Origin: a virus
Reading direction: 5' to 3' (one strand)
DNA: 51,028 nucleotides
IMG/VR virus record: IMGVR_UViG_3300022074_000070
Span: 1-51,028 of that record
In this document: one piece after another, positions 19,421 through 30,776 of the stretch
Layout of the letters: each line of letters opens with the position of its first letter
Position numbering within the stretch: position 1 is the stretch's first letter
Translations under genes and position numbers: made by a program
Notes under the pieces: generated by a model
Told to the model about the DNA's origin: nothing
Database searches by the model: none
What the model saw: only the letters and a program-made list of their open reading frames with translations

Positions 19421-20362
19421 TTAACCGAAATGTGTTCTTGCTGAAGCTAAGAAGTTATCTACAAAACCTCTTGCATCAGCTTGACTCATATCTCCATTTG
19501 TTTGTCCTTTTGATAATAGAGCTGTCCAAACAAAACAGTTTGTTGATGTTGATTGGTAATATGAATAGTCACTATCTGAGTTACCCGCATAATCAGTAGT
19601 TGCAAATCCACCAGCTACTGTGCTACTCCAAGAAGATTGACCAACAGTACAATATAAGTGACAAACACTAGGGTCACTATTCTGGTTCCATCCTTTGTTT
19701 ACGAGCCATGCATAAACTGGACTAAAACCTGCAACAGTATCACCGTTGTATACAGTAACAGAGTTTGGTGATCCACCACCACCGTCAGCACCTAGGTTAC
19801 CACTTCTTGACCAACCATATGTGGTATTTGTATCAGTAGGAGCAACTGCAATTCCAACCAGTGGCCAAGAATATCCAAGTGGTTGATATTTAACACTACT
19901 GTATGTCTGTAGTCCACTATTATAACCCATGTTAGAAGTTTGGTTTCCATTAACTCTAAGTTGAGTATAGTTACCACTATCATACATATCAGATTGTGCG
20001 TCACCGATATAGGTATCACTAGCATCTGTTTCATACTGGAAGTTAGATCCACTTGCTGCCCAAGTCGTTTTTTGACCTTGCATGTATGAAATAAAAGCAC
20101 CAAACTGTGTTGAATCGTATAAATCGAATGGAGCAGGACCTATCTGAAACCACTCAGTTCCATTATAAAATTCTAATTTTGCGTCTGTTGTATTGAACCT
20201 AATCTCTCCTACTGCTCCAGTCGGTCTTTCTGCAGTGGTTCCTTGTGGCAATTTCCAAGCAGTGTTTGCTTGCGAACCATCTAACCCGACGTTACCAGGT
20301 ATCACAACATTTCCACTCTCACTGAGCGTTGTAATTTGATCAACTTTAATTTTAGAACTCAT
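19421..20362 (-). CDS. Tail fibre-like protein (313 aa), candidate fibre tip
   Basis: The N-terminus MSSKIKVDQITTLSESGNVV is a common opening of cyanophage fibre proteins. It is followed by GTTAERPTGAVGEIRFNTTD and LEFYNGTEW, the connector seen before C-terminal tip domains. Residues about 80-313 are rich in Gly, Ser, Tyr, Trp and Asn (MGYNSGLQTYSS, GADGGGGSPNSV, DYAGNSDSDYSYYQS), ending in a helical GDMSQADARGFVDNFLASAR. I infer a short fibre or receptor-binding component. It has its own perfect late promoter at 20412-20419. The exact T4 counterpart is unclear (gp12 or fibritin position). Confidence 0.75.
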   Translation of the reverse strand: MSSKIKVDQITTLSESGNVVIPGNVGLDGSQANTAWKLPQGTTAERPTGAVGEIRFNTTDAKLEFYNGTEWFQIGPAPFDLYDSTQFGAFISYMQGQKTTWAASGSNFQYETDASDTYIGDAQSDMYDSGNYTQLRVNGNQTSNMGYNSGLQTYSSVKYQPLGYSWPLVGIAVAPTDTNTTYGWSRSGNLGADGGGGSPNSVTVYNGDTVAGFSPVYAWLVNKGWNQNSDPSVCHLYCTVGQSSWSSTVAGGFATTDYAGNSDSDYSYYQSTSTNCFVWTALLSKGQTNGDMSQADARGFVDNFLASARTHFG

Positions 20363-20411
20363 TTTTAACTTACCGTAATTTTAGGGTCGTTTTTATATCA
20401 ACAGTTATATT

Positions 20412-20419
20412 TATTTATA
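20412..20419 (-). promoter_or_regulatory. Late promoter TATAAATA before the 313-aa fibre gene
   Basis: Perfect late box in the 73-bp AT-rich gap after the giant fibre gene, giving a leader of roughly 45 nt. It should drive the fibre, oxygenase and small genes down to the terminator near 18250. Confidence 0.65.
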
Positions 20420-20435
20420 TTATTATATAGAGGAC

Positions 20436-23400
20436 TTAATATATCGCCCACTCTCCACCTGTATTGACAGTGACTGTTGTTCCACTAGCAATACCGATAG
20501 GACCAAAACTAACAATTTCGTCTCCATTATTGACTGAAATATTTTCACTAACAGTCTTCCTAGATTTCTTGAATATACCATAAGAGTCAATGTACTGTGC
20601 GTCACCTGTTGCTCTCATAACTGTAGTCTTCTGACCATTAGAAAGTGCTTCAGTTGATTCTACGTTAAGACCGTTAGAACCACGAACGTTAACTCTGTAT
20701 GTTGTTTGTTCAGAAGCATCTCCATGGAAATTCCAAAGACCACTGCCACCCATTCTAGCAACGCTAGTTGTTCCGATCTGGAAGTATATATCATCAACAC
20801 CAGCTAATCCAGTATAACCATTATTTGAGAAGTAGAATCTTCTTTGACCATCTGTTGAGTTGATACTTGTGTTTGTAAGACCCTGTAAGTATGGTAGAGA
20901 TAATGCACTGTAACCATCAAGTAAGTCTGCGTTCAAGTTAGTGACAACTGTATTAGAAGCAACTTGGAATGGTGCAGTTCCTTGTGCAACATTAGATTGA
21001 ATTATTTTCTCAGCTCTCAATACTTCATTGACTACTAAACCACCATCTGCTCTAAGATGCATACCTTCAATAGGTGTGCCATCAGTCTCAACTCTGAAAC
21101 GCATAGCAGGAGAAGAATCACCAAGACCAGTCCATACTTGATCAAAGTAGAAGTCTCCGACGCTATTGTCATAACGCATTAAGAAACCTTCACTAGTGCC
21201 ATCATTCTGACCAGTAAATCTAATTGAAGGATCAGCATCGCTGTTAGTGTCTGATGATCCTGCAGTAATTCTAAGTTCAGCACTTGATGAACTATCACTA
21301 TAAAGATGAAGTAATGTAGATGGGTCATTTGCTTTGTTACCAACACCTACTTTCTCACCTCTCCATACCATTGTGGTATTTGAATCACTAGCTCCATACC
21401 ACATGTAAGGAAAACTATATGCTAAGTAGTTCAAGTCAGAACCAAATCGTACACCACCTAAACTACCATTACCCTTACCTTTAATTGCTAATATGTTAGT
21501 AGTAGACTTACCAAGAGTAACACCATTACTATCTGCAAGACTTAATGTTGACTCACCGTTGTTAGTAAATATACCTTGGTCACCTGTTAGATCATTAACT
21601 GTTAAGTGTCCTGATGCGTCCCTACGTGCGATTGTGTTAGCAGTAGCAGCAGTTGACTGTGTATAACCATCAATATAGTGAGCGTCTAGTTGAGATGATG
21701 CACCATCGTTTCCTGCGTGCCATACAGTGTTACCGTTAAAGGTAAAGTCTGAAGCGTTGAATCTAATAGTTCCATTTCCATCTGTGCTATTACCACCAGA
21801 GATGAGCATTTGAACGTCATAGTTTGGTGCAAGACCAGATGATCTAAAGTCTATTGTTGGAGTTGTTGATACCGCTGCTTTACCAATCTGCAACTTAGCA
21901 CCGTTTGCATCATCACGTAATCCAAAGATACTTACTGATCCACCAGAAACTTTGTTAGATGAAGATACAGTCCATTTTGTGCCAGGATTAGGTCCGAAGA
22001 CATACACATTAGCGTTTGAGTTTGCACCTACAAATGCTACAGTTCCTGTTACGAGTGAATAAATTTCACCAGTTGTATGTGTAAGTTCTTGAACACCATT
22101 TGAACCATCAACTACGATAGAACCAATGTTGTTTGTTGCACCTACATCAGAGTAGATAGTATATGTTCCACCATTATTAATATTACCACCAACACCACTG
22201 TTACAATGGAAGTCAGGAATGTAGAATGTAAACTTGTTACCTGTGTCATTAACATAGAAGTTCTCAAAGACTATCTTGTCCTGACCAAGAACCTCTGGTA
22301 AGAACATATCACCAATAGGTGATGTGATGCCACCACGTGTGTCACCTACGTTATAACCTGTTTGATACCATAGACCCTGTTTCGCATCTAATTTATCAGC
22401 ATCCAATCCACTTGCAGCACCTTGGTTATTTTCTGACCAAATCTTAAACCAGTTAGAATAAACTGCATTAATACCACTGTTACCTCTGATGTATAGATTA
22501 TTGTTATCTGTAAATCCTAATTGAGTAGAAGCATTACCTGTTGCCTGTCTTCTGTATGTTACAACACCATGTGTGGTTCCACCATCTGATAGACCATCAG
22601 CGTTGTTGTTTCTAAGTGCAGCAGCAACACCGTTTGCTGCAGAAGATGGAGCAGGGTTTGATGTAACTGATGCGGTCTCGTTAAAGATTCTGTTTGCAGT
22701 ATCAGCAGTACCAGATATTGATATATTATATGTGGTGTTTGCAAGTCTTGCGGGATCTAATGTTCCGAAGATTAAACTTCCTGCGTTCTGATAGAAGGCA
22801 CCTTGGTTACCATCTAGTTTATCAGCATTAAGTTCAGATCCTGCACCCTGATCAATTGAAACACTACCTGTGTTATCAATAATAAATCCACCTTGATCTT
22901 GGTTACCAACTGCCTGATTTGTTACGTCTTTTCTAAATCTGAATACACCGTAATTACCATGAGTTACTGCACTAGGTGTTAAGTTATTACCCTTTCTAAT
23001 ATCAATTTCAATGTTACCATAGTAACGGTTGATTGTTCCTTTGGTTGCTCCAAGTATAGCACCGCTACCACCACCAAGTTCACTTGGTATGACTACAGAA
23101 AAGTCACCTGTATATCCTGTTCCTGAGTCAGTAACAGTAGCAGATGTAATTGTTCCACTAGTTACAATATAAGTAGCACGAGCAACACTGTCACTACTAA
23201 TAGAGATATTACCACCATCCATCGGAATGTTCTGGTAAGTTCCGTCTGTATATCCTGTTCCACCGTTTGTAATAGTGATACTGTCAATATAACTACTATC
23301 TGACAAAGAACCACCAACAACAACAGCGTCTTGAGTGGTACCTCTAAGTGATTGTAATGCATACTCATATGATGAGTCACCACGTAAGAATGTGAAGGAG

Positions 23401-26400
23401 TTAGCAGCACCTTTACCCGCTAATCTTTCTGGATCAATTGTTCCCGCAACAATGTTAGAAGCATCAATATTTGTTGATGTTAACTGTGTCCAGTTTGAAG
23501 CATTTCCACCAGATGTATTAATAGCTCTAGAGATATCAATAATCCTCTTCCTTGCCATGTTACCACTATTAGTTCCGCTAGATGGGGAAGTTATAGCATA
23601 CTGAGTAGAATTGATTAGAGATATTGCATAGAAACCATCTGATGCTCCACCACTTGTAAAGTCAATATAAACTATATCAGCGTTAGATAAGTTGTGACTA
23701 CTACTCTCTGTGACAGTAACGGTAGTATCAGTCTGAGAGTATGTTCCTGTTGCTTCATTAACTAAACCTTGATCAAGTATAAAGTCACTTGACTCAAATT
23801 TAATGTTATTTGCAATGTTGATATTTACACGACCTTCAATCTGTGCAGCGATTACTGCTGTAACTCCAGATGAAACCTGTGATTGAACAGTTGGTTGTGA
23901 ATAGTAACCCTTACCCGCATTTGTAATGGTGACTTTAGTTACTGAACCATTAACAACGTTTGCTGTAGCAGCAGCTTGAACACCATTCGATGTATCATCA
24001 GGTGCAGATATTGTTAATGCAAAATCTCCACTATAACTATCACCAGCTGTGCTGATAACAAAGTTAAATATTTGACCATCGTTATATGCACTTACTGTTC
24101 CACGAGCAGTTGTAACACTACCAACTATAATATCACCTACACCGAATGTGTATGCACTGTTAGGAATGAATGCTAAGAACTGAGATTCTAAATCATTCTC
24201 AAGAATATATGATATCGCAACACCCTGTGTCTTGAATTGATGAGTTCCTGCACCTTGAGATTGTAAATTTATTACTTGGTTAGACTCAGCGTTAGATTTA
24301 GTAGTTGCAAGTTTAATATTGTCATCATCTACTTTGATAGCATAATATTCTACACCATCAGATAATCCAGTAATAAGACTGCTTCCTGATGTATATGTTA
24401 ATATATCTCCAGTATTAACACCATGTCCTACAATGGTAATTACTTCAGTGCTAGTATTAACAGAAGCAGCAGCAACGCTAAATGTTGTTGCTGTTGTTTC
24501 AATTGCAATATCACCCGCCTTTGCATCTTCAATAGCAAGTCTTTCTGCAGTAGATGCAACAGATGTAATATTGAATGGACGTAACGCAGGAATCTGGTCA
24601 ATGTTAATCTTACCAGATGATGTTAACTGAACAAGTGCAGATGGAACTGCGTTTGTAGAGTATGGTTGGTTTAGATATGGTCCTAAGTTGTTTGAAATAT
24701 AATCTCTAACAGATGCCTGTGTAGGTAGTAAGGAGTCAGATGCGAATGTTCCACCTAAGTTATCATCTTGTGAGAATCCTGTAATTGTGATGTCACCACC
24801 AACAATCTTAATAGATGATAGTTCAGAGATACTAACTGTTCCAACGAAACTGATAGCACCAGTTCTGTTGAAGATCGTAACAAAGTTACCAACTTTAAAG
24901 TCACCAAACTCGTTGGTTCCTGATGTATAAACCTGACCGAATGATTCTTCTGCTGCTTCAAATGCAGTTCCTAATCCAACACCACCGTTTTGTGGTAACG
25001 CAGCATAGGTATTACCTGATCCAGAATATTCCCAAGTGTGTGATGATGAGTTAGTAACAGATGGTCTGTGGAATCTAATTGTCTTATTAAGAAGATTACT
25101 TAGTGGTAAACTTCCTGCAGCAAATGATGGATCATTAGATGACTGATAGCGGTTAGTGCCATCAGAGTAGTCCATCGAACGGTTAGTTGTAATTTTAGCA
25201 ACAACCTGTGTTCCTGCAGAACCAGAAATAAGTTCTGTTTCTAGAATGATATGTTCAACCGCAGGGTCAGCAGATGTATAACCATCAATTTTAATAATAT
25301 AATCTTCAATTGGTATACCTGTTAATGTTGTTCCACCAACCTGTATAACTTGTCTACCCGTTGGGAGACCATTGCCATCAACATCTTCTGTGATAGTTTG
25401 TATAGTACCAATATCAAAGTCATATGCTTCTGCTCTGAATCCCGTAGCACGTAGAGAGTATGTTCCGAAGTTAGATGCTGAGTTAGTAACCGATGCATAA
25501 CCACCAGACTGAGTTAAGATACCATCTTGACAGAAGATAGCAAACACAGAAACTAACTGTGTGTAACCATCGTTACTGACGTTATACGCAGTTCCACCAA
25601 AACAAATGATGGTGAATGCGTTTGCAACCATCGACTTACCTTGTGGGTCAAACTGTGCAACAGTTGCACCTTGTGAATTCTGTTTTAGACCTGGTCTAGG
25701 AACGTTAGGTGTAGCAACTTTAGCACCATCAATTTCACAACCAGAACCACCAAGGAATGATATAAGTGAAGAGTTCTGAATATAAGGTGATGCTTCAATA
25801 ACTGGAAGATCTAAGAATGTATTTGCAAGTGGGAAACTATACTTCAATCCATCCTGTTCCACAATAAGAGGATCAGGATTTGTTACTGTTCCACTGTAGG
25901 AATTGCCACTAGACAATACATTATCAAGAATACCCCAATTTGTAGTCAATGCAGATACAACGTTAGCACACTCAGGAGCAGATGAATCTACTGTAATAGA
26001 ACCGTTTCCTCTGGGTAATATTTGTGAGAATTGACCATTCTCTAAATTATTTCTTATTGCATCTATTGCTAATTCTTTTGCTGCAGCAAATATTGCACGA
26101 GTATATGTAACCTCAGTCGCAACATGTTGTACACCACTAGCACCAGAAATATATAAGTTTGCTGCCTCTACAGTCTTCTGGTTACCACCATATCTTAGGT
26201 CATATTGGAATGCTCTAAGAATCTTCATTGTGTCATCAACACACTGTTGATCGCCAGGTGAAGATGTTCTTGTAACACTGGACACAGATCCTGCAGTAGA
26301 ACCGCTTCCTAACGCTGTTGTAACGGTGCTGAAGAAGGTTGTAATTGCTGAGATAACGTTTGCACAAGAAGGTGCAGTAGCAACTGTTCTAGTGGCATGT

Positions 26401-29400
26401 GACATGTTATCATTAGCGATAGCAGTATCAACGATTGTGAAGAAATCATCAATGAATGCTTGCTCTACAGCGGTTCCTTTATTTGTATTATCAAGAACCT
26501 GAGTAAATCCATGATTACCTTCGATAGTTCCAATAGAATCACTAATTGCAACTGTTCTAGCAAGTGTCTTTGCTATCTGGAATACTGCACGAGATTCTGT
26601 CTCTTCCCCGTCTAAAAATACAGAGTTTGTATATAACTCAGCAGCATCATAAACTTGTTCGTTACCACCGTATGCTAGGTTGTATACAACAGTTCTTAGT
26701 AAATCTAATACGTCATCAATACAGTTTTGATTTCCGCCAGGCACATTATGTGATGGGTTATCAATGTTATATCTTTGAACTGCCTCAAACGCAATTAATT
26801 CTAAGTTCTTTTGTATTAGAGTTGCAGCGTCACGACGAACTGTTCCTGCACCTGTATCAAGAGTTGCAAGATGATAATACTGTAATTTTGTAGCGTAAGT
26901 TGATCTGTATAGAGGTAGGTTTCTTCCTGCTAAAATACAAGCATCTTTTGCGTATCCAAATACCTCTACATAACGATCTCTTGTTAATGAGAAACCAGGA
27001 TCAATATAGAATTTTGCTTGGTCATATACTCTATCGTTACCACCCCACTTGAGGTTATGTGACACACATTTTTGAATAAAGTCTCTAACATCATCGTAAC
27101 ATGCTGTGCTTCCTGTAGGTATTGTGTAACTTGGATTTGCAGCAAGCATTTTATTGACTGCATAATCTGCAATCATATCTGCGTTAGCAAATAACAACTC
27201 AGAAACATCACCGTATTTGTTACCTTGATCCTTACTGTTAGGAGTTCTGAATGGTTGTTGATTATCTGTGAATGTACCACCAGTTCCAGACTGCGTGTCA
27301 GCAGCAGTTGAGTTAAGATCTATGGTAAACTCTCTATCATCATAGATGTCTTTAATACCATGAGTTCCATTAACTGTAGCATTACCAGAACTAGCAATAG
27401 TTACTTGAGATGTTAATGACTTCTTGAGTGAGTTAGTTCCTGCACTTACAAGTGTATGAGTTGAGGTGTCACTAGATACACCAACGTTAACTTCAAAGGT
27501 ATCGTTTGTTTTATTAGATATTTTTAACCACTTATCAAATGCAGGATCTGATCCTCTTGGGTAAGGATGCTGAGTTTGGTTACTATCTGTTGTACAAGTA
27601 AAGACTAATGCACCCGCATCAAATTTAATCAAGTCGCCATTACTAAATCCGTGACCAGTAATTGTTACTTCTAATACACCAGTTGCAGGGGTGTATGTTG
27701 CAGCACTTGGAGTATGCTGACTGAAACTAGGATATAAGTTGTGTCCTTTCTGAACCTTGATAGTTGCAGTCTCACCACTTACAGACCATGATGTAATTCC
27801 TCTTGCAACTGTTGCTGCTACTTGTCCAAAGTTTGTTCCACCAATAGTAAGTGCAGTACCACGAGTAGCGGATGATTCATAATAATATTTGACATAAGCG
27901 ACTGCCTCCTCTGCAATAAACTCTTGGTTGTTTTTAATATTCTCAGCACCATCTCTGAATCTATCACTAATATTGATCTTGCTAAATCCATAGGGAGAGT
28001 TACGTAGAGATGCTAAAACGTAGTTGTTAGAACCAACAACAGTCTGGTTACCAGTTGGATCAATAGATGTTCCAACCTGAGATATATTTGCTCTTACAAC
28101 AAACTGTAATGAGTAACCATCAGCACGTTCAATACGGTGTGTAATATATTTTCTACCATTAAGATCTGAAAGGTTATCAAGAACGGATACTCCAGTTCCA
28201 GATGATGTTGTTACATCACTAGCAGTATCAATGTTTGCTTGCTTTAATACAAATGTGATTGTAGTATTAGAACTATTATAACGACCATAACCTAAACCCA
28301 AATCAGAGTTTGATGGAAGTGTTGGAGTTCCAGATCCTGCAGTAAAACTACCAATAAGATATGTCTTATTAAATCTAGCGTCAGCATTAGGGAAGTTAAA
28401 TGTAAGACCCGCTTGACCTAGAGTTGCCCAATCAGCAAATAATGCACTTGTCTTTGCATTATCAACGCTAGTTATTGAAACTGTAATTTCTCCACCAGAA
28501 ATTGTATATGAACTATTTGTAGATGTTCCAAAATCTACAGAACCATTTTGGAAACCATAGATATTAACTTCTTGTCCAACTTCATAATCATGGAAGTCGG
28601 ATCCCACAGAAGAACTTGCTAAGGTAAAGATAGGACCGTTGTAAGTTGCTATAGTGTTGGTTGATGTATCAATCGTTGTGATTGTTAAAAGTTTATTTTG
28701 TAATTCAAATCTTTGGAAACCAAATCCTGTAGATGTTAGAGGTAATGTTACTGGATTATCTGCACCTGATGCATCTTTCTGTGTTGCGTTAGCAGCAGAT
28801 GATGCAAGTCTAAACCAGTTATCACTTTCTTTATAAACAAAGTATGCAGTTCCATCAACAAGACCGCCAATACCGCCCATTTGTCCTGCACGGTAAATGA
28901 CACCATCTCCAGTTGTATACTGATGATTTGTGACATAGATGTGATTATCATCTAGCATTATATTGCCAGTTGTCAACTCATGTAACTTATCGTCTGCAGA
29001 TACGCCTGTAATATCTTTTCTACCCTGAGTTATACTTGTATTGGCAATGGCATTTGCTTCTAGATCATATAATTCAATAGTATTATCATCTACCTTTCTT
29101 ACCCAATAACGTGTGCCATCAAGTAAACCTGGTAAAGGAGTTGTGTTCTCATCTATGCTGTATGCAACTTGGTCACCAGTTGAGAAACCATGTCCTGTAA
29201 TTGTAATTCTATCAAGTGTAGTATCAATATAATTTGTGCTACCTCTAAATGACACCGTTTCCACTTCAGTGTCAATAGTATGCTGATAAATTTGGTTAGA
29301 TATTGTCTCTAATTCTGGTCTTAATGACTCAGCATCAACAACGTCAAATCTATCTGATACGCTCGCATTATTGATATCAGTAATAATATCTGCTGCAACA

Positions 29401-30776
29401 TTATCATAAAATATTTTTTCAGCGTCTTGGAATACATCATTGACGTTTGATGTAACAAGAACAGTTACGTCACCTGTAGAGTATGGTGATGCTACAGGAC
29501 CTGTAAAGTTTACTCCCTGAATTGTACCAAGTGTTCCTGAAGATCCACCCTGTACAAAATCTCCAATTTCTAGAGTTGTGTTACTACCTGTGTGGTTGTT
29601 AAATGTAATTTTGAATATGTTATCACCACGATACTTGTCACCAGGCACTGCGGGAATCTGTCCCACCTCTGGTTCATAGTATAATCTTTGTTTGTCATCA
29701 AACACAAAGGCATACTTCCAAGTATGAATTACTGTACTTTGTGGGTCTGATGCGTTCTGTAATGCGTCTCTGAATACAACACCAATAATATATGTTTCGT
29801 TAGACGCCTTGATCATGTGACGATCTTGGTTTTGAGGTCTAACAATAACTCTTCTTAAGTTATCACCAACAAGTGAACAGTTTCTAGGAAGTGATATGGG
29901 GTTATCTTCTAGATACTCACCACCAGATACGATGATAGAAACGTATTCGTCACTAGGATCTGGAGTTGCTTTCTGTAATCCATAAGCAATCTGTGCTGCT
30001 TTCTTAATAGTTTTAACTGGTCTTGCAGCTGAACGACCATCGTTTAAATCACTACCAATAGTTTGTGATACATATACACGTCCACCAGTGTCATTAGTAG
30101 CAACTTGGTATACAAAATCAGTGGTTGCAACCCTTCTGGACTGATCACTTAGAGGAGGTGTGTCAGCAGTTGGAAAGAATGTTGTTCCAAAAGTCGGACT
30201 TGTTACATCTGTATCTTCAAAGTTAATTAGATTAGGACCACGAAGTTTCAACGCAGGGTTGATAATCGTGTCAATATCAAGGTTTGTGACCTGTGCAGTA
30301 TCAGAAATGATTGAACGAGTCGTTCTAATTTGTCCTTCAACGTCTAGTTCATACTCAGGATTATTAGTATTGATACCAACTCTGATGTTTTCCTGTGCGT
30401 TTTTTCCTACGAATATTGCGTCTTTTTCTAATGCACCTTGACCAACAGATATTTCTAGTGACTCGTCTCCTTGAATACTTAATGATCTTACTCTTTTATA
30501 TGATACTCCTGCACCCGCTGTAATTACACTGTTTGCGGAACCTACAAAACTTAAATTATCGTCATCTACTTTCGTTACTATAAAATTGCCATCTACTTCG
30601 CCACCAGATGTGAAGTCAAGATAAAATTTATCTGATCCTATAATACCATGTGCAACAGAGACTATGTTACCTACACCAGCTGCTGATCTGCTGTATGTGG
30701 CGTTCGTCCAATTTCCTGTTGCTTTTGATCCAGAGGCTTCAATCCTCTGTTGGTCGGCATTAATCTGAAAACTCAT
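20436..30776 (-). CDS. Giant tail fibre / beta-helix virion protein (3446 aa)
   Basis: Largest gene in the window. Residues 26-95 are an HG/YLDFTSGGxxDG module. VGINTNNPEYELDVEGQI near 150 is a fibre connector. A right-handed beta-helix starts near 230 (VYVSQTIGSDLNDGRSA ... IIVSGGEYLEDNPISLP, DUF1565/pectate-lyase-like). Three helical C..DD...YGGN modules lie around 1215-1540, and beta-helix-like sequence resumes near 1630. GTGY modules follow. LNADKLDG-type fibre repeats sit near 2650, 2790, 3030 and 3280, and the C-terminus ends GTTVTVNTGGEWAIY. AGGAA lies 6 nt before the ATG. It probably forms a long trimeric fibre for host recognition. It occupies the T4 gp10-gp12 zone but is not a clear homologue of any T4 fibre. 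Composition is Thr/Ser/Asn/Gly-rich. Confidence 0.85.
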   Translation of the reverse strand: MSFQINADQQRIEASGSKATGNWTNATYSRSAAGVGNIVSVAHGIIGSDKFYLDFTSGGEVDGNFIVTKVDDDNLSFVGSANSVITAGAGVSYKRVRSLSIQGDESLEISVGQGALEKDAIFVGKNAQENIRVGINTNNPEYELDVEGQIRTTRSIISDTAQVTNLDIDTIINPALKLRGPNLINFEDTDVTSPTFGTTFFPTADTPPLSDQSRRVATTDFVYQVATNDTGGRVYVSQTIGSDLNDGRSAARPVKTIKKAAQIAYGLQKATPDPSDEYVSIIVSGGEYLEDNPISLPRNCSLVGDNLRRVIVRPQNQDRHMIKASNETYIIGVVFRDALQNASDPQSTVIHTWKYAFVFDDKQRLYYEPEVGQIPAVPGDKYRGDNIFKITFNNHTGSNTTLEIGDFVQGGSSGTLGTIQGVNFTGPVASPYSTGDVTVLVTSNVNDVFQDAEKIFYDNVAADIITDINNASVSDRFDVVDAESLRPELETISNQIYQHTIDTEVETVSFRGSTNYIDTTLDRITITGHGFSTGDQVAYSIDENTTPLPGLLDGTRYWVRKVDDNTIELYDLEANAIANTSITQGRKDITGVSADDKLHELTTGNIMLDDNHIYVTNHQYTTGDGVIYRAGQMGGIGGLVDGTAYFVYKESDNWFRLASSAANATQKDASGADNPVTLPLTSTGFGFQRFELQNKLLTITTIDTSTNTIATYNGPIFTLASSSVGSDFHDYEVGQEVNIYGFQNGSVDFGTSTNSSYTISGGEITVSITSVDNAKTSALFADWATLGQAGLTFNFPNADARFNKTYLIGSFTAGSGTPTLPSNSDLGLGYGRYNSSNTTITFVLKQANIDTASDVTTSSGTGVSVLDNLSDLNGRKYITHRIERADGYSLQFVVRANISQVGTSIDPTGNQTVVGSNNYVLASLRNSPYGFSKINISDRFRDGAENIKNNQEFIAEEAVAYVKYYYESSATRGTALTIGGTNFGQVAATVARGITSWSVSGETATIKVQKGHNLYPSFSQHTPSAATYTPATGVLEVTITGHGFSNGDLIKFDAGALVFTCTTDSNQTQHPYPRGSDPAFDKWLKISNKTNDTFEVNVGVSSDTSTHTLVSAGTNSLKKSLTSQVTIASSGNATVNGTHGIKDIYDDREFTIDLNSTAADTQSGTGGTFTDNQQPFRTPNSKDQGNKYGDVSELLFANADMIADYAVNKMLAANPSYTIPTGSTACYDDVRDFIQKCVSHNLKWGGNDRVYDQAKFYIDPGFSLTRDRYVEVFGYAKDACILAGRNLPLYRSTYATKLQYYHLATLDTGAGTVRRDAATLIQKNLELIAFEAVQRYNIDNPSHNVPGGNQNCIDDVLDLLRTVVYNLAYGGNEQVYDAAELYTNSVFLDGEETESRAVFQIAKTLARTVAISDSIGTIEGNHGFTQVLDNTNKGTAVEQAFIDDFFTIVDTAIANDNMSHATRTVATAPSCANVISAITTFFSTVTTALGSGSTAGSVSSVTRTSSPGDQQCVDDTMKILRAFQYDLRYGGNQKTVEAANLYISGASGVQHVATEVTYTRAIFAAAKELAIDAIRNNLENGQFSQILPRGNGSITVDSSAPECANVVSALTTNWGILDNVLSSGNSYSGTVTNPDPLIVEQDGLKYSFPLANTFLDLPVIEASPYIQNSSLISFLGGSGCEIDGAKVATPNVPRPGLKQNSQGATVAQFDPQGKSMVANAFTIICFGGTAYNVSNDGYTQLVSVFAIFCQDGILTQSGGYASVTNSASNFGTYSLRATGFRAEAYDFDIGTIQTITEDVDGNGLPTGRQVIQVGGTTLTGIPIEDYIIKIDGYTSADPAVEHIILETELISGSAGTQVVAKITTNRSMDYSDGTNRYQSSNDPSFAAGSLPLSNLLNKTIRFHRPSVTNSSSHTWEYSGSGNTYAALPQNGGVGLGTAFEAAEESFGQVYTSGTNEFGDFKVGNFVTIFNRTGAISFVGTVSISELSSIKIVGGDITITGFSQDDNLGGTFASDSLLPTQASVRDYISNNLGPYLNQPYSTNAVPSALVQLTSSGKINIDQIPALRPFNITSVASTAERLAIEDAKAGDIAIETTATTFSVAAASVNTSTEVITIVGHGVNTGDILTYTSGSSLITGLSDGVEYYAIKVDDDNIKLATTKSNAESNQVINLQSQGAGTHQFKTQGVAISYILENDLESQFLAFIPNSAYTFGVGDIIVGSVTTARGTVSAYNDGQIFNFVISTAGDSYSGDFALTISAPDDTSNGVQAAATANVVNGSVTKVTITNAGKGYYSQPTVQSQVSSGVTAVIAAQIEGRVNINIANNIKFESSDFILDQGLVNEATGTYSQTDTTVTVTESSSHNLSNADIVYIDFTSGGASDGFYAISLINSTQYAITSPSSGTNSGNMARKRIIDISRAINTSGGNASNWTQLTSTNIDASNIVAGTIDPERLAGKGAANSFTFLRGDSSYEYALQSLRGTTQDAVVVGGSLSDSSYIDSITITNGGTGYTDGTYQNIPMDGGNISISSDSVARATYIVTSGTITSATVTDSGTGYTGDFSVVIPSELGGGSGAILGATKGTINRYYGNIEIDIRKGNNLTPSAVTHGNYGVFRFRKDVTNQAVGNQDQGGFIIDNTGSVSIDQGAGSELNADKLDGNQGAFYQNAGSLIFGTLDPARLANTTYNISISGTADTANRIFNETASVTSNPAPSSAANGVAAALRNNNADGLSDGGTTHGVVTYRRQATGNASTQLGFTDNNNLYIRGNSGINAVYSNWFKIWSENNQGAASGLDADKLDAKQGLWYQTGYNVGDTRGGITSPIGDMFLPEVLGQDKIVFENFYVNDTGNKFTFYIPDFHCNSGVGGNINNGGTYTIYSDVGATNNIGSIVVDGSNGVQELTHTTGEIYSLVTGTVAFVGANSNANVYVFGPNPGTKWTVSSSNKVSGGSVSIFGLRDDANGAKLQIGKAAVSTTPTIDFRSSGLAPNYDVQMLISGGNSTDGNGTIRFNASDFTFNGNTVWHAGNDGASSQLDAHYIDGYTQSTAATANTIARRDASGHLTVNDLTGDQGIFTNNGESTLSLADSNGVTLGKSTTNILAIKGKGNGSLGGVRFGSDLNYLAYSFPYMWYGASDSNTTMVWRGEKVGVGNKANDPSTLLHLYSDSSSSAELRITAGSSDTNSDADPSIRFTGQNDGTSEGFLMRYDNSVGDFYFDQVWTGLGDSSPAMRFRVETDGTPIEGMHLRADGGLVVNEVLRAEKIIQSNVAQGTAPFQVASNTVVTNLNADLLDGYSALSLPYLQGLTNTSINSTDGQRRFYFSNNGYTGLAGVDDIYFQIGTTSVARMGGSGLWNFHGDASEQTTYRVNVRGSNGLNVESTEALSNGQKTTVMRATGDAQYIDSYGIFKKSRKTVSENISVNNGDEIVSFGPIGIASGTTVTVNTGGEWAIY
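26130..27130 (-). repeat. Three helical YGGN modules within the giant fibre
   Basis: Three copies of a roughly 110-160-residue unit. Each contains a Cys-x-Asp-Asp start (CYDDVRDF, CIDDVLDL, CVDDTMKI), then NLKWGGND, NLAYGGNE or DLRYGGNQ, then an Ala-rich AAxLY helix and an Arg/Ala-rich helix (VFQIAKTLARTVA, IFAAAKELAIDAI). Between copies lies a second short element, PSCANVISAITT / PECANVVSALTT. They interrupt otherwise beta-rich fibre sequence. Confidence 0.75.

Follow-up and report, generated by a model that had tools for sequence, protein, structure and literature searches.

The tail fibre encoded on a 51,028 nt stretch of viral DNA (positions 1 to 51,028 of IMG/VR record IMGVR_UViG_3300022074_000070; the whole stretch is called the window) carries repeated helical domains that are almost certainly homologous to the beta subunits of phycobiliproteins. 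The fibre open reading frame (ORF) codes for 3446 amino acids (aa) on the minus strand (20436-30776), matches the tail fiber family PHROG 5342, and in its repeat region is about 85% identical (tblastn) to the tail fibre of the Prochlorococcus phages P-HM1 and P-HM2. Bilin-carrying tail fibres made of exapted phycobiliprotein-like domains are the best reading of the data, and its chances are put at about even.

The sequence-only reading had described, at 26130-27130, three copies of a unit with C-x-D-D, [YW]GGN and A..Y blocks, and these blocks do lie there, at aa 1226-1257, 1352-1382 and 1512-1542 (nt 27006-27101, 26631-26723 and 26151-26243; copies 1, 2 and 3). The copies are not due to chance, because tblastn with the window region matched 318 phage records at E ≤ 1e-5. 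That reading knew of no named domain for the repeats and would be refuted by their membership of a characterised family; for the fold, such membership is found. PF00502 (Phycobilisome) is the sole Pfam match of the fibre at E ≤ 1, with 23.8 bits over a cut-off of 22.2 at aa 1311-1373, and profile and fold searches return phycobiliproteins. A search of the window reading frames with PF00502 reached 18.5 bits, below the cut-off, and the single copies gave 13.8 bits (copy 1), 18.9 or 20.0 bits depending on the cut (copy 2) and no match (copy 3). As the single copies stay under the cut-off, relatives were gathered for a profile; phmmer with one window copy against PDB also found no match, so that a profile was needed.

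A scan of IMG/VR gave 106 pattern stretches, 97 of them confirmed, and the best 80 were kept and correspond to 78 loci, including one (L001) that is a copy of part of the window. Iterated profiles produced 301 matches at E < 1e-4 (204 distinct) on 80 ORFs; each ORF has between one and eight, complete or partial. PF00502 was matched by 36 of 82 selected units at E ≤ 0.01 (best 5e-7), and two other families by one unit each; the cut-off was passed by three of six scanned units (L055 with 30.3 bits, L045:7513-7857 with 27.6 and L077 with 25.6). The 82-unit profile recognized 159 distinct PDB sequences at E ≤ 10, with a phycoerythrin beta subunit on top (E 1.1e-6). Among the best 60 of the 159, 59 bear phycobiliprotein names and one is a 'bacterial fluorescent protein', and the best 60 rows obtained with a profile of complete units have the same composition. 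NCBIfam models of ApcB, CpcB, CpcA and CpeB gave matches below cut-off in two of five units, and none for the window copy.

A K-C-x-R-D-I-G-Y motif occurs in units of L055, L078, L032 and L068, and with M or L in place of I in L045 and L052. It is near to the classical phycobiliprotein motif, and units bearing it may be less changed copies; L055 has the best PF00502 score seen, and L032 and L052 scored 16.3 and 14.1 bits.

The repeat was also claimed to be alpha-helical with a conserved Cys and Asp, which agrees with the AlphaFold2 model of copy 2, with five helices and a pLDDT (predicted local distance difference test) of 89.1. This model (26514-26855, up to helix G) overlays C-phycocyanin beta with Z 12.8 and 2.1 Å over 106 residues (model 1-107 on chain 31-146). 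Phycobiliproteins take 48 of the 50 rows listed for it, the others being 8u0f and the photocobilin globin 8j2y, and are returned by Foldseek as well. A second block, typically D-C-A-x-V-x-S-x-I-T-T-L, follows 3' of the cores (195 matches at E < 1e-3 in 79 ORFs). A complete unit of L045 that includes this block (154 aa) was modelled with pLDDT 91.1 and a pTM (predicted template modelling score) of 0.88. It overlays a cyanobacterial phycoerythrin beta chain with Z 19.0 and 2.0 Å over 143 residues (model 1-150 on chain 31-184), up to the last residues of the chain. Of the 50 rows listed, 49 are titled phycobiliprotein or phycobilisome and one is 8u0f ('bacterial fluorescent protein'); the best Foldseek E value is 8.9e-5. 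Because of this overlay, the complete unit as modelled has the phycobiliprotein fold of the beta type and lacks the first 30 residues of it.

A chance likeness of helical bundles without common descent would accord with single window copies that stay under the PF00502 cut-off. It is largely excluded, with hardly any probability left to it, as the profile matches go to one family, the ligand residues fall on corresponding places, the Z 19 overlay covers most of the chain, and the domain is confined to phages whose hosts belong to the group that has the phycobiliprotein gene family.

The X and Y helices (about residues 1-30), which serve alpha-beta association, are missing, as the phycobiliprotein overlay rows begin at chain residues 29-34. 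In L033, the cores are separated by about 18 aa, which is too short for these helices. For this reason, the phage domain is called phycobiliprotein-like and is not counted among the phycobiliprotein subunits. It is unlikely to join an alpha subunit in the rods or core of a phycobilisome, judging from the missing helices and from the place of the fibre outside the cell.

The repeat system of the window was resolved into three kinds of elements: N (helices A-B), E (Cys82 helix to helix G) and H (Cys153 helix). The family profile matched the three copies with E 2.2e-32, 2.1e-37 and 2.8e-31, values that are not independent, the copies being among its 82 rows; the same profile found a fourth, partial copy upstream (N0 in Table 1). 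The helical elements extend from about 25908 to 27968, wider than previously described, and include two extra conserved Cys blocks with Cys at aa 1471 and 1603. Copy 3 is without its own first helices. Along the protein, the elements follow as N0, N1, E1, N2, E2, a weak H without Cys, H (C1471), E3 and H (C1603), with two Cys-bearing helix-H blocks for three cores.

Table 1. Tail fibre gene of the window and the elements of its phycobiliprotein-like domains. HMM, hidden Markov model; E values are from element HMMs that had window copies among their rows or seed.
Feature	Position (nt)	Strand	Position (aa)	Basis and remarks
Tail fibre protein, domain carrier, relative of P-HM1/P-HM2 'tail fiber protein'	20436..30776	-	3446 aa in total	ORF; PHROG 5342; 85% identity
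N0, helices A-B (Asp39 side), proposed outer domain	27888..27968	-	937-963	N-element HMM E 1e-7; A1 profile E 5.3e-6 (27867-27968); pairing with E3 proposed
N1, helices A-B, middle domain (copy 1)	27126..27227	-	1184-1217	HMM E 1.2e-11
E1, Cys82-Asp85 helix to helix G, middle domain	26904..27104	-	1225-1291	HMM E 1.5e-18; C1226 (codon 27099-27101), D1229
N2, helices A-B, inner domain (copy 2)	26748..26846	-	1311-1343	HMM E 1.2e-13; AlphaFold2 model
E2, Cys82-Asp85 helix to helix G, inner domain	26532..26729	-	1350-1415	HMM E 4.6e-22; AlphaFold2 model of 26514-26855; C1352, D1355
Possible degenerate helix-H block without Cys, inner domain	26412..26453	-	1442-1455	HMM E 0.45; suggested by a Cys-bearing block at the matching place of L019
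Helix-H block, Cys153-type, proposed close of middle domain	26304..26393	-	1462-1491	HMM E 1.5e-11; C1471 (codon 26364-26366)
E3, Cys82-Asp85 helix to helix G, outer domain (copy 3)	26034..26249	-	1510-1581	HMM E 4e-26; C1512, D1515
Helix-H block, Cys153-type, proposed close of outer domain	25908..26000	-	1593-1623	HMM E 8.7e-14; C1603 (codon 25968-25970)

The relatives clarify this order. In L033, it is NENENENENENEHHHHHH, with six each of N, E and H. Equal numbers of the three elements were also counted in L029 (eight each), in L031, L032, L035 and L039 (five each) and in L028 and L036 (four each); equal counts alone do not settle which H pairs with which core. L019, a relative of the window protein, has the order NNENEHHEH. 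The orders of these nine loci obey the rule U = N U* E U* H, in which whole domains are inserted before E or H. Over 28 architectures, the rule requires 40 undetected symbols, compared with a mean of 129.7 and a minimum of 94 in 500 shuffles that kept NE pairs; these architectures are related, and singly few beat their own shuffles (lowest share 0.006). In eight of the 28 no missing symbol is required, and for L053, L042 and L060 the rule is no better than chance. In BFVD, a tail protein of S-CAM1 and a nameless protein match the complete unit with TM (template modelling) scores of 0.89 and 0.86 over alignments of 253 and 275 columns for a query of 154 residues. Such lengths would be expected if, in the models, the fold stays whole and holds an insert of about 100-120 residues.

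Three copies thus exist as the sequence-only reading had it, and what did not stand is their simple tandem arrangement, which is disfavoured because the helix-H blocks and half-units suit a nested order. The window copies are likely to be parts of three nested domains. From the element order, copy 3 would be the rear of an outer domain with its front at aa 937-963, about 550 aa upstream, and the pairing of the parts given in Table 1 is probably correct.

According to the HMMER alignment to 6jpr_B, the conserved residues of the phage units hold the positions of Asp39, Cys82, Asp85 and Cys153. These four residues are bilin ligands in beta subunits. The helix-H block aligned to residues 139-170, with the phage Cys on residue 153, and this segment taken alone scores a weak 2.8 bits. 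In 38 distinct complete units, C82, D85 and C153 are present in all and D39 in 37 (Cys131 and Asp7 of the unit numbering are the equivalents of Cys153 and Asp39); several other positions are also kept in 37. Elements collected separately have D39 in 190 of 202 N, C82 and D85 each in 207 of 221 E (with gaps in the remaining 14) and C153 in 154 of 154 H. The invariance of Cys is partly ascertained, since H elements and complete units were picked with Cys-bearing models (profiles A1 and A2 were seeded on Cys-bearing copies). The conserved C-x-D-D is, on the alignment, a putative Cys82/Asp85-type bilin site. The proposal that Cys and Asp bind a metal was not borne out: there is no evident metal site, no metal-binding family was matched, and both residues are accounted for by the bilin site.

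The two Cys could also form bridges inside one nested domain, from one such domain to another or across the trimer and so stiffen a fibre exposed outside the cell. Both occur in 38 of 38 distinct complete units, with the ascertainment just given, and 461 of the 1279 Cys of 70 domain proteins fall on these two places. Such a redox or disulfide function is nevertheless quite unlikely, as the two Cys presumably lie far apart in the phycobiliprotein fold, conservation of Asp85 and Asp39 would be unneeded, and the link with CpeT described below would stay unexplained.

In the phage records searched, the domain is confined to cyanophages. With a typical unit, tblastn found 359 of 50,697 phage records at E ≤ 0.1, named as Synechococcus phage (282), cyanophage (60), Prochlorococcus phage (16) and 'Marine ...' (one). 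The 318 records matched by the window region, and 332 in another search with window sequence, are all Synechococcus phages, Prochlorococcus phages or cyanophages by name. Matches in BFVD include proteins of uncultured Caudovirales, host unknown. In bacterial and archaeal genomes, 63 pattern stretches were found with one unit as the sole query, and none was confirmed. Among 26 genomes chosen by hand, the domain is present in 17 (13 of the first 22 and all four added later; S-WAM2 and S-CAM3 were taken because they bear CpeT). It was not found in P-SSM2, S-SM2, S-SSM7, S-TIM5, S-CRM01, P-TIM68, podoviruses 9515-10a and P-SSP7, and pelagiphage HTVC008M.

The carriers are tail fibre and structural proteins of T4-like cyanophages from PHROG 5342, 4527, 701 and 18802, with T4-GC513 in P-HM1, T4-GC734 in S-PM2 and Syn1, and T4-GC969 in S-SM1. 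The S-SM1 matches fall in gene SSM1_102, which is T4-GC969, and in the part of PMC3037559 available this protein is reported from purified S-SM1 virions. Nine other proteins of the window were scanned with PHROGs and include a T4-like myovirus's portal, sheath, large terminase, head closure and baseplate wedge.

Genes of 2OG-Fe(II) oxygenases lie near domain-bearing fibre genes in Syn1 (L105), S-PM2 (L087) and P-HM1 (L083), and these enzymes may modify the fibre. The S-PM2 record (L087, NC_006820.1 165000-176000) has 16 tRNA genes annotated inside the 11-kb fibre gene; ARAGORN predicts two tRNAs there, both upstream of the fibre (145-303), and the annotated tRNA positions look wrong.

Phage CpeT, a T-type bilin lyase (PF06206), is the proposed partner of the domain; its gene occurs together with the domain and, in some phages, right beside the carrier gene. 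Of the 26 genomes, PF06206 was identified in 14 of the 17 with the domain and in none of the nine without it, in counts that ignore phylogeny. Of the 16 phages in Table 3 of PMC3037559 (domain called by profile in 15 and by tblastn in P-HM2), 13 have both domain and cpeT and three have neither, once Syn1_028 is counted. In the table as printed, the cpeT row disagrees with the domain once, and each of the other 23 gene rows 3 to 13 times. Syn1 has no cpeT entry in this table, but its record annotates cpeT (T4-GC338), at 4939-5478 of L105 (record 19938-20477; PF06206 E 1.5e-35).

In all five regions read (S-PM2, Syn1, S-RSM4, S-WAM2 and S-CAM3), cpeT and the carrier fibre gene share a strand, with cpeT 0.7-1.5 kb upstream and tRNAs and small genes in the interval. 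In S-RSM4 (L106), S-WAM2 (L109) and S-CAM3 (L110), this interval holds tRNA clusters and HNH or EndoV endonuclease genes, which suggests a spot for mobile cargo. Match positions place cpeT within about 1-7 kb of the domain in ACG-2014e, -h and -i, S-RIM44, S-RIM32, Sf-CH1a, Sf-CH1b, S-CAM1 and S-H9-1, and about 72 kb from the listed domain place in S-CAM4. CpeT-like ORFs precede the domain gene in nine of the 78 IMG/VR loci. In four of them (L028, L029, L034 and L035), two such ORFs follow each other upstream of the array gene, the second with weak E values of 2e-5 to 5e-9; perhaps there is one lyase per Cys site. According to the available part of PMC10452541, Cys153 is the target of the T-type lyase CpcT, and CpeT is supposed to have the same role in phycoerythrin; the Cys of the helix-H block is the same residue.

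Other partners were rejected. PF09367 of S-type lyases was found in none of 22 genomes (an S-type cpcV is reported in marine cluster C phages in the part of PMC10665884 available). Bilin reductase and haem oxygenase occur in six and three of the 22, including P-SSM2 and S-SSM7 without the domain, and are not strict partners. Among these first 22, bilin reductase is present in all four domain-positive phages isolated on Prochlorococcus (P-SSM4, P-SSM7, P-HM1 and P-RSM4) and in none of the nine other domain-positive phages (Synechococcus hosts; S-RSM4 is without host entry).

Taken together, a lineage of cyanomyoviruses may have taken a beta-type phycobiliprotein-like globin domain into tail fibre and baseplate-region proteins, where later copies would have been inserted into loops of earlier ones, either ahead of the Cys82 helix or ahead of helix H. 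In the complete units, the ligands of both beta-subunit bilin sites are retained, Cys82 with Asp85 and Cys153 with Asp39. A T-type lyase, phage CpeT where present, would attach bilin during infection, most likely at the Cys153-type site, and some phages of Prochlorococcus, a host without phycobilisomes, would also supply genes for bilin synthesis. The assembled fibre would then carry pigment outside the cell and could have a light-responsive or light-stabilised part in adsorption. Whether bilin is covalently bound in the virion could go either way on this evidence.

Several observations count against a pigmented fibre. Ahead of Cys82, the loop that bears Arg77/Arg78 in 6jpr_B is shortened by about seven residues, and the Arg of C-x-R-D (Arg84) is mostly Asp (D 62%, R 26% across the family; the window copies keep Cys and Asp in three of three, with Arg replaced by Asp in all), so that the Cys82 site seems non-canonical. 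The Cys153-type residue is apparently lost from the inner window domain, and Cys is absent from the last copies of L042, L053 and L071. Pfam detects no CpeT in S-SKS1, which has the domain, nor at E ≤ 0.001 in P-SSM7 and S-ShM2, which also have it (cpeT is listed for both in the PMC3037559 table), and the window, a fragment, is without CpeT too. P-SSM2 and S-SSM7 carry both bilin reductase and haem oxygenase and no domain. S-PM2, Syn1, S-RSM4 and S-WAM2 (S-CAM3 excepted) bear further domain genes elsewhere, and a short CpeT is distant from the domain genes in P-HM1, P-SSM4, P-RSM4, syn9, S-SM1, S-SSM5, S-RIM8, Syn19 and Syn33. The phages are related, so that the counts are not independent. Moreover, the part of PMC2984593 available supposes that phage cpeT increases host phycoerythrin when S-PM2 infects.

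Much of this suits the principal alternative, in which exapted phycobiliproteins are stackable helical spacers without bilin, Cys and Asp are retained to cap helices or for packing, and host phycoerythrin is the target of phage CpeT. The altered surroundings of Cys82, the copies without Cys, the proposed host target of cpeT (PMC2984593, as above) and the many unit copies in structural proteins of several kinds all agree with such an apo scaffold. The best-conserved positions, however, include those which contact bilin in beta subunits, with both sites kept together, and the domain coincides with a bilin lyase gene even in phages of a host without phycobilisomes. The scaffold is a real possibility, short of an even one. 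That new fibre chains act in the infected cell as a decoy, competing for host bilins or lyases or holding pigment, with an incidental virion role, is very improbable. The part of PMC3037559 available describes expression of phage bilin genes during infection and calls their role a mystery, but a decoy needs no virion proteins, and T4-GC969 is reported in purified virions (PMC3037559).

S-PM2 is reportedly among the phages with light-dependent adsorption. Such adsorption is described for several marine cyanomyoviruses in the part of PMC2984593 available, and PMC7112961, likewise available in part, states that P-HM2 does not adsorb in the dark and that P-SSP7, which is among the domain-negative genomes, infects in the dark. 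A role of the fibre in light-gated adsorption is attractive for these reasons and still rather doubtful; light dependence may stem from the host side. The fullest version, in which nested bilin-loaded arrays charged by phage CpeT (with phage-made bilins in Prochlorococcus phages) form a virion photoreceptor and the fibres adsorb only in light, is likewise improbable.

The phycobiliprotein fold is known, and no earlier report was found of its place in phage virions, its nested multiplication or its link with phage bilin genes; in a search of open-licence papers, no listed title or abstract dealt with phycobiliprotein-like domains of phage fibres. How bilin genes help phages of Prochlorococcus, which is without phycobilisomes, is called unclear in PMC2984593, and PMC3037559 treats the role of phage cpeT as unresolved and that of pcyA and pebS as a mystery, both sources as far as available. 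A candidate substrate that is encoded by the phage and borne on the virion would be the missing piece for the purpose of these genes. If pigmented, light-sensing virions are real, phage cpeT, pebS, pcyA and ho1 would have a substrate, and light-dependent adsorption would be explained. Both the purpose of these genes and the way in which some cyanophages adsorb only in light, as reported for P-HM2, can now be put to direct tests; in the repeat region, the fibre of P-HM2 has about 85% identity to that of the window. An antenna-protein fold in a viral fibre, grown by insertion into its own loops, is also a striking example of how a domain can be exapted and grow by nesting.

Compared with known systems, the T4-like cyanophage tail fibre and structural proteins are the carriers of the domain, yet their annotations read without a phycobiliprotein-like domain. 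With the CpeB and CpcB beta subunits (PF00502), the phage units share a globin-type order of helices that starts near residue 31 and reaches the C-terminus, the equivalents of Asp39, Cys82, Asp85 and Cys153, and a beta-type helix H. They differ in having no X and Y helices (1-30), a shorter loop before Cys82 and mostly C-x-D-D in place of C-x-R-D, and in being nested and multi-copy within a giant virion protein that has no known alpha partner. The BBAGs or photoglobins are, in the part of PMC10151467 available, likewise bilin-binding globin kin of phycobiliproteins with roles other than antenna, the bilin being putative in the phage. BBAG-2 binds biliverdin without C-x-R-D, and BBAG-1 and BBAG-3 are loaded without a lyase (PMC10151467). 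BBAGs are cellular proteins, whereas the phage units, in a comparison made without a tree, look nearer to beta subunits and have the helix-H Cys.

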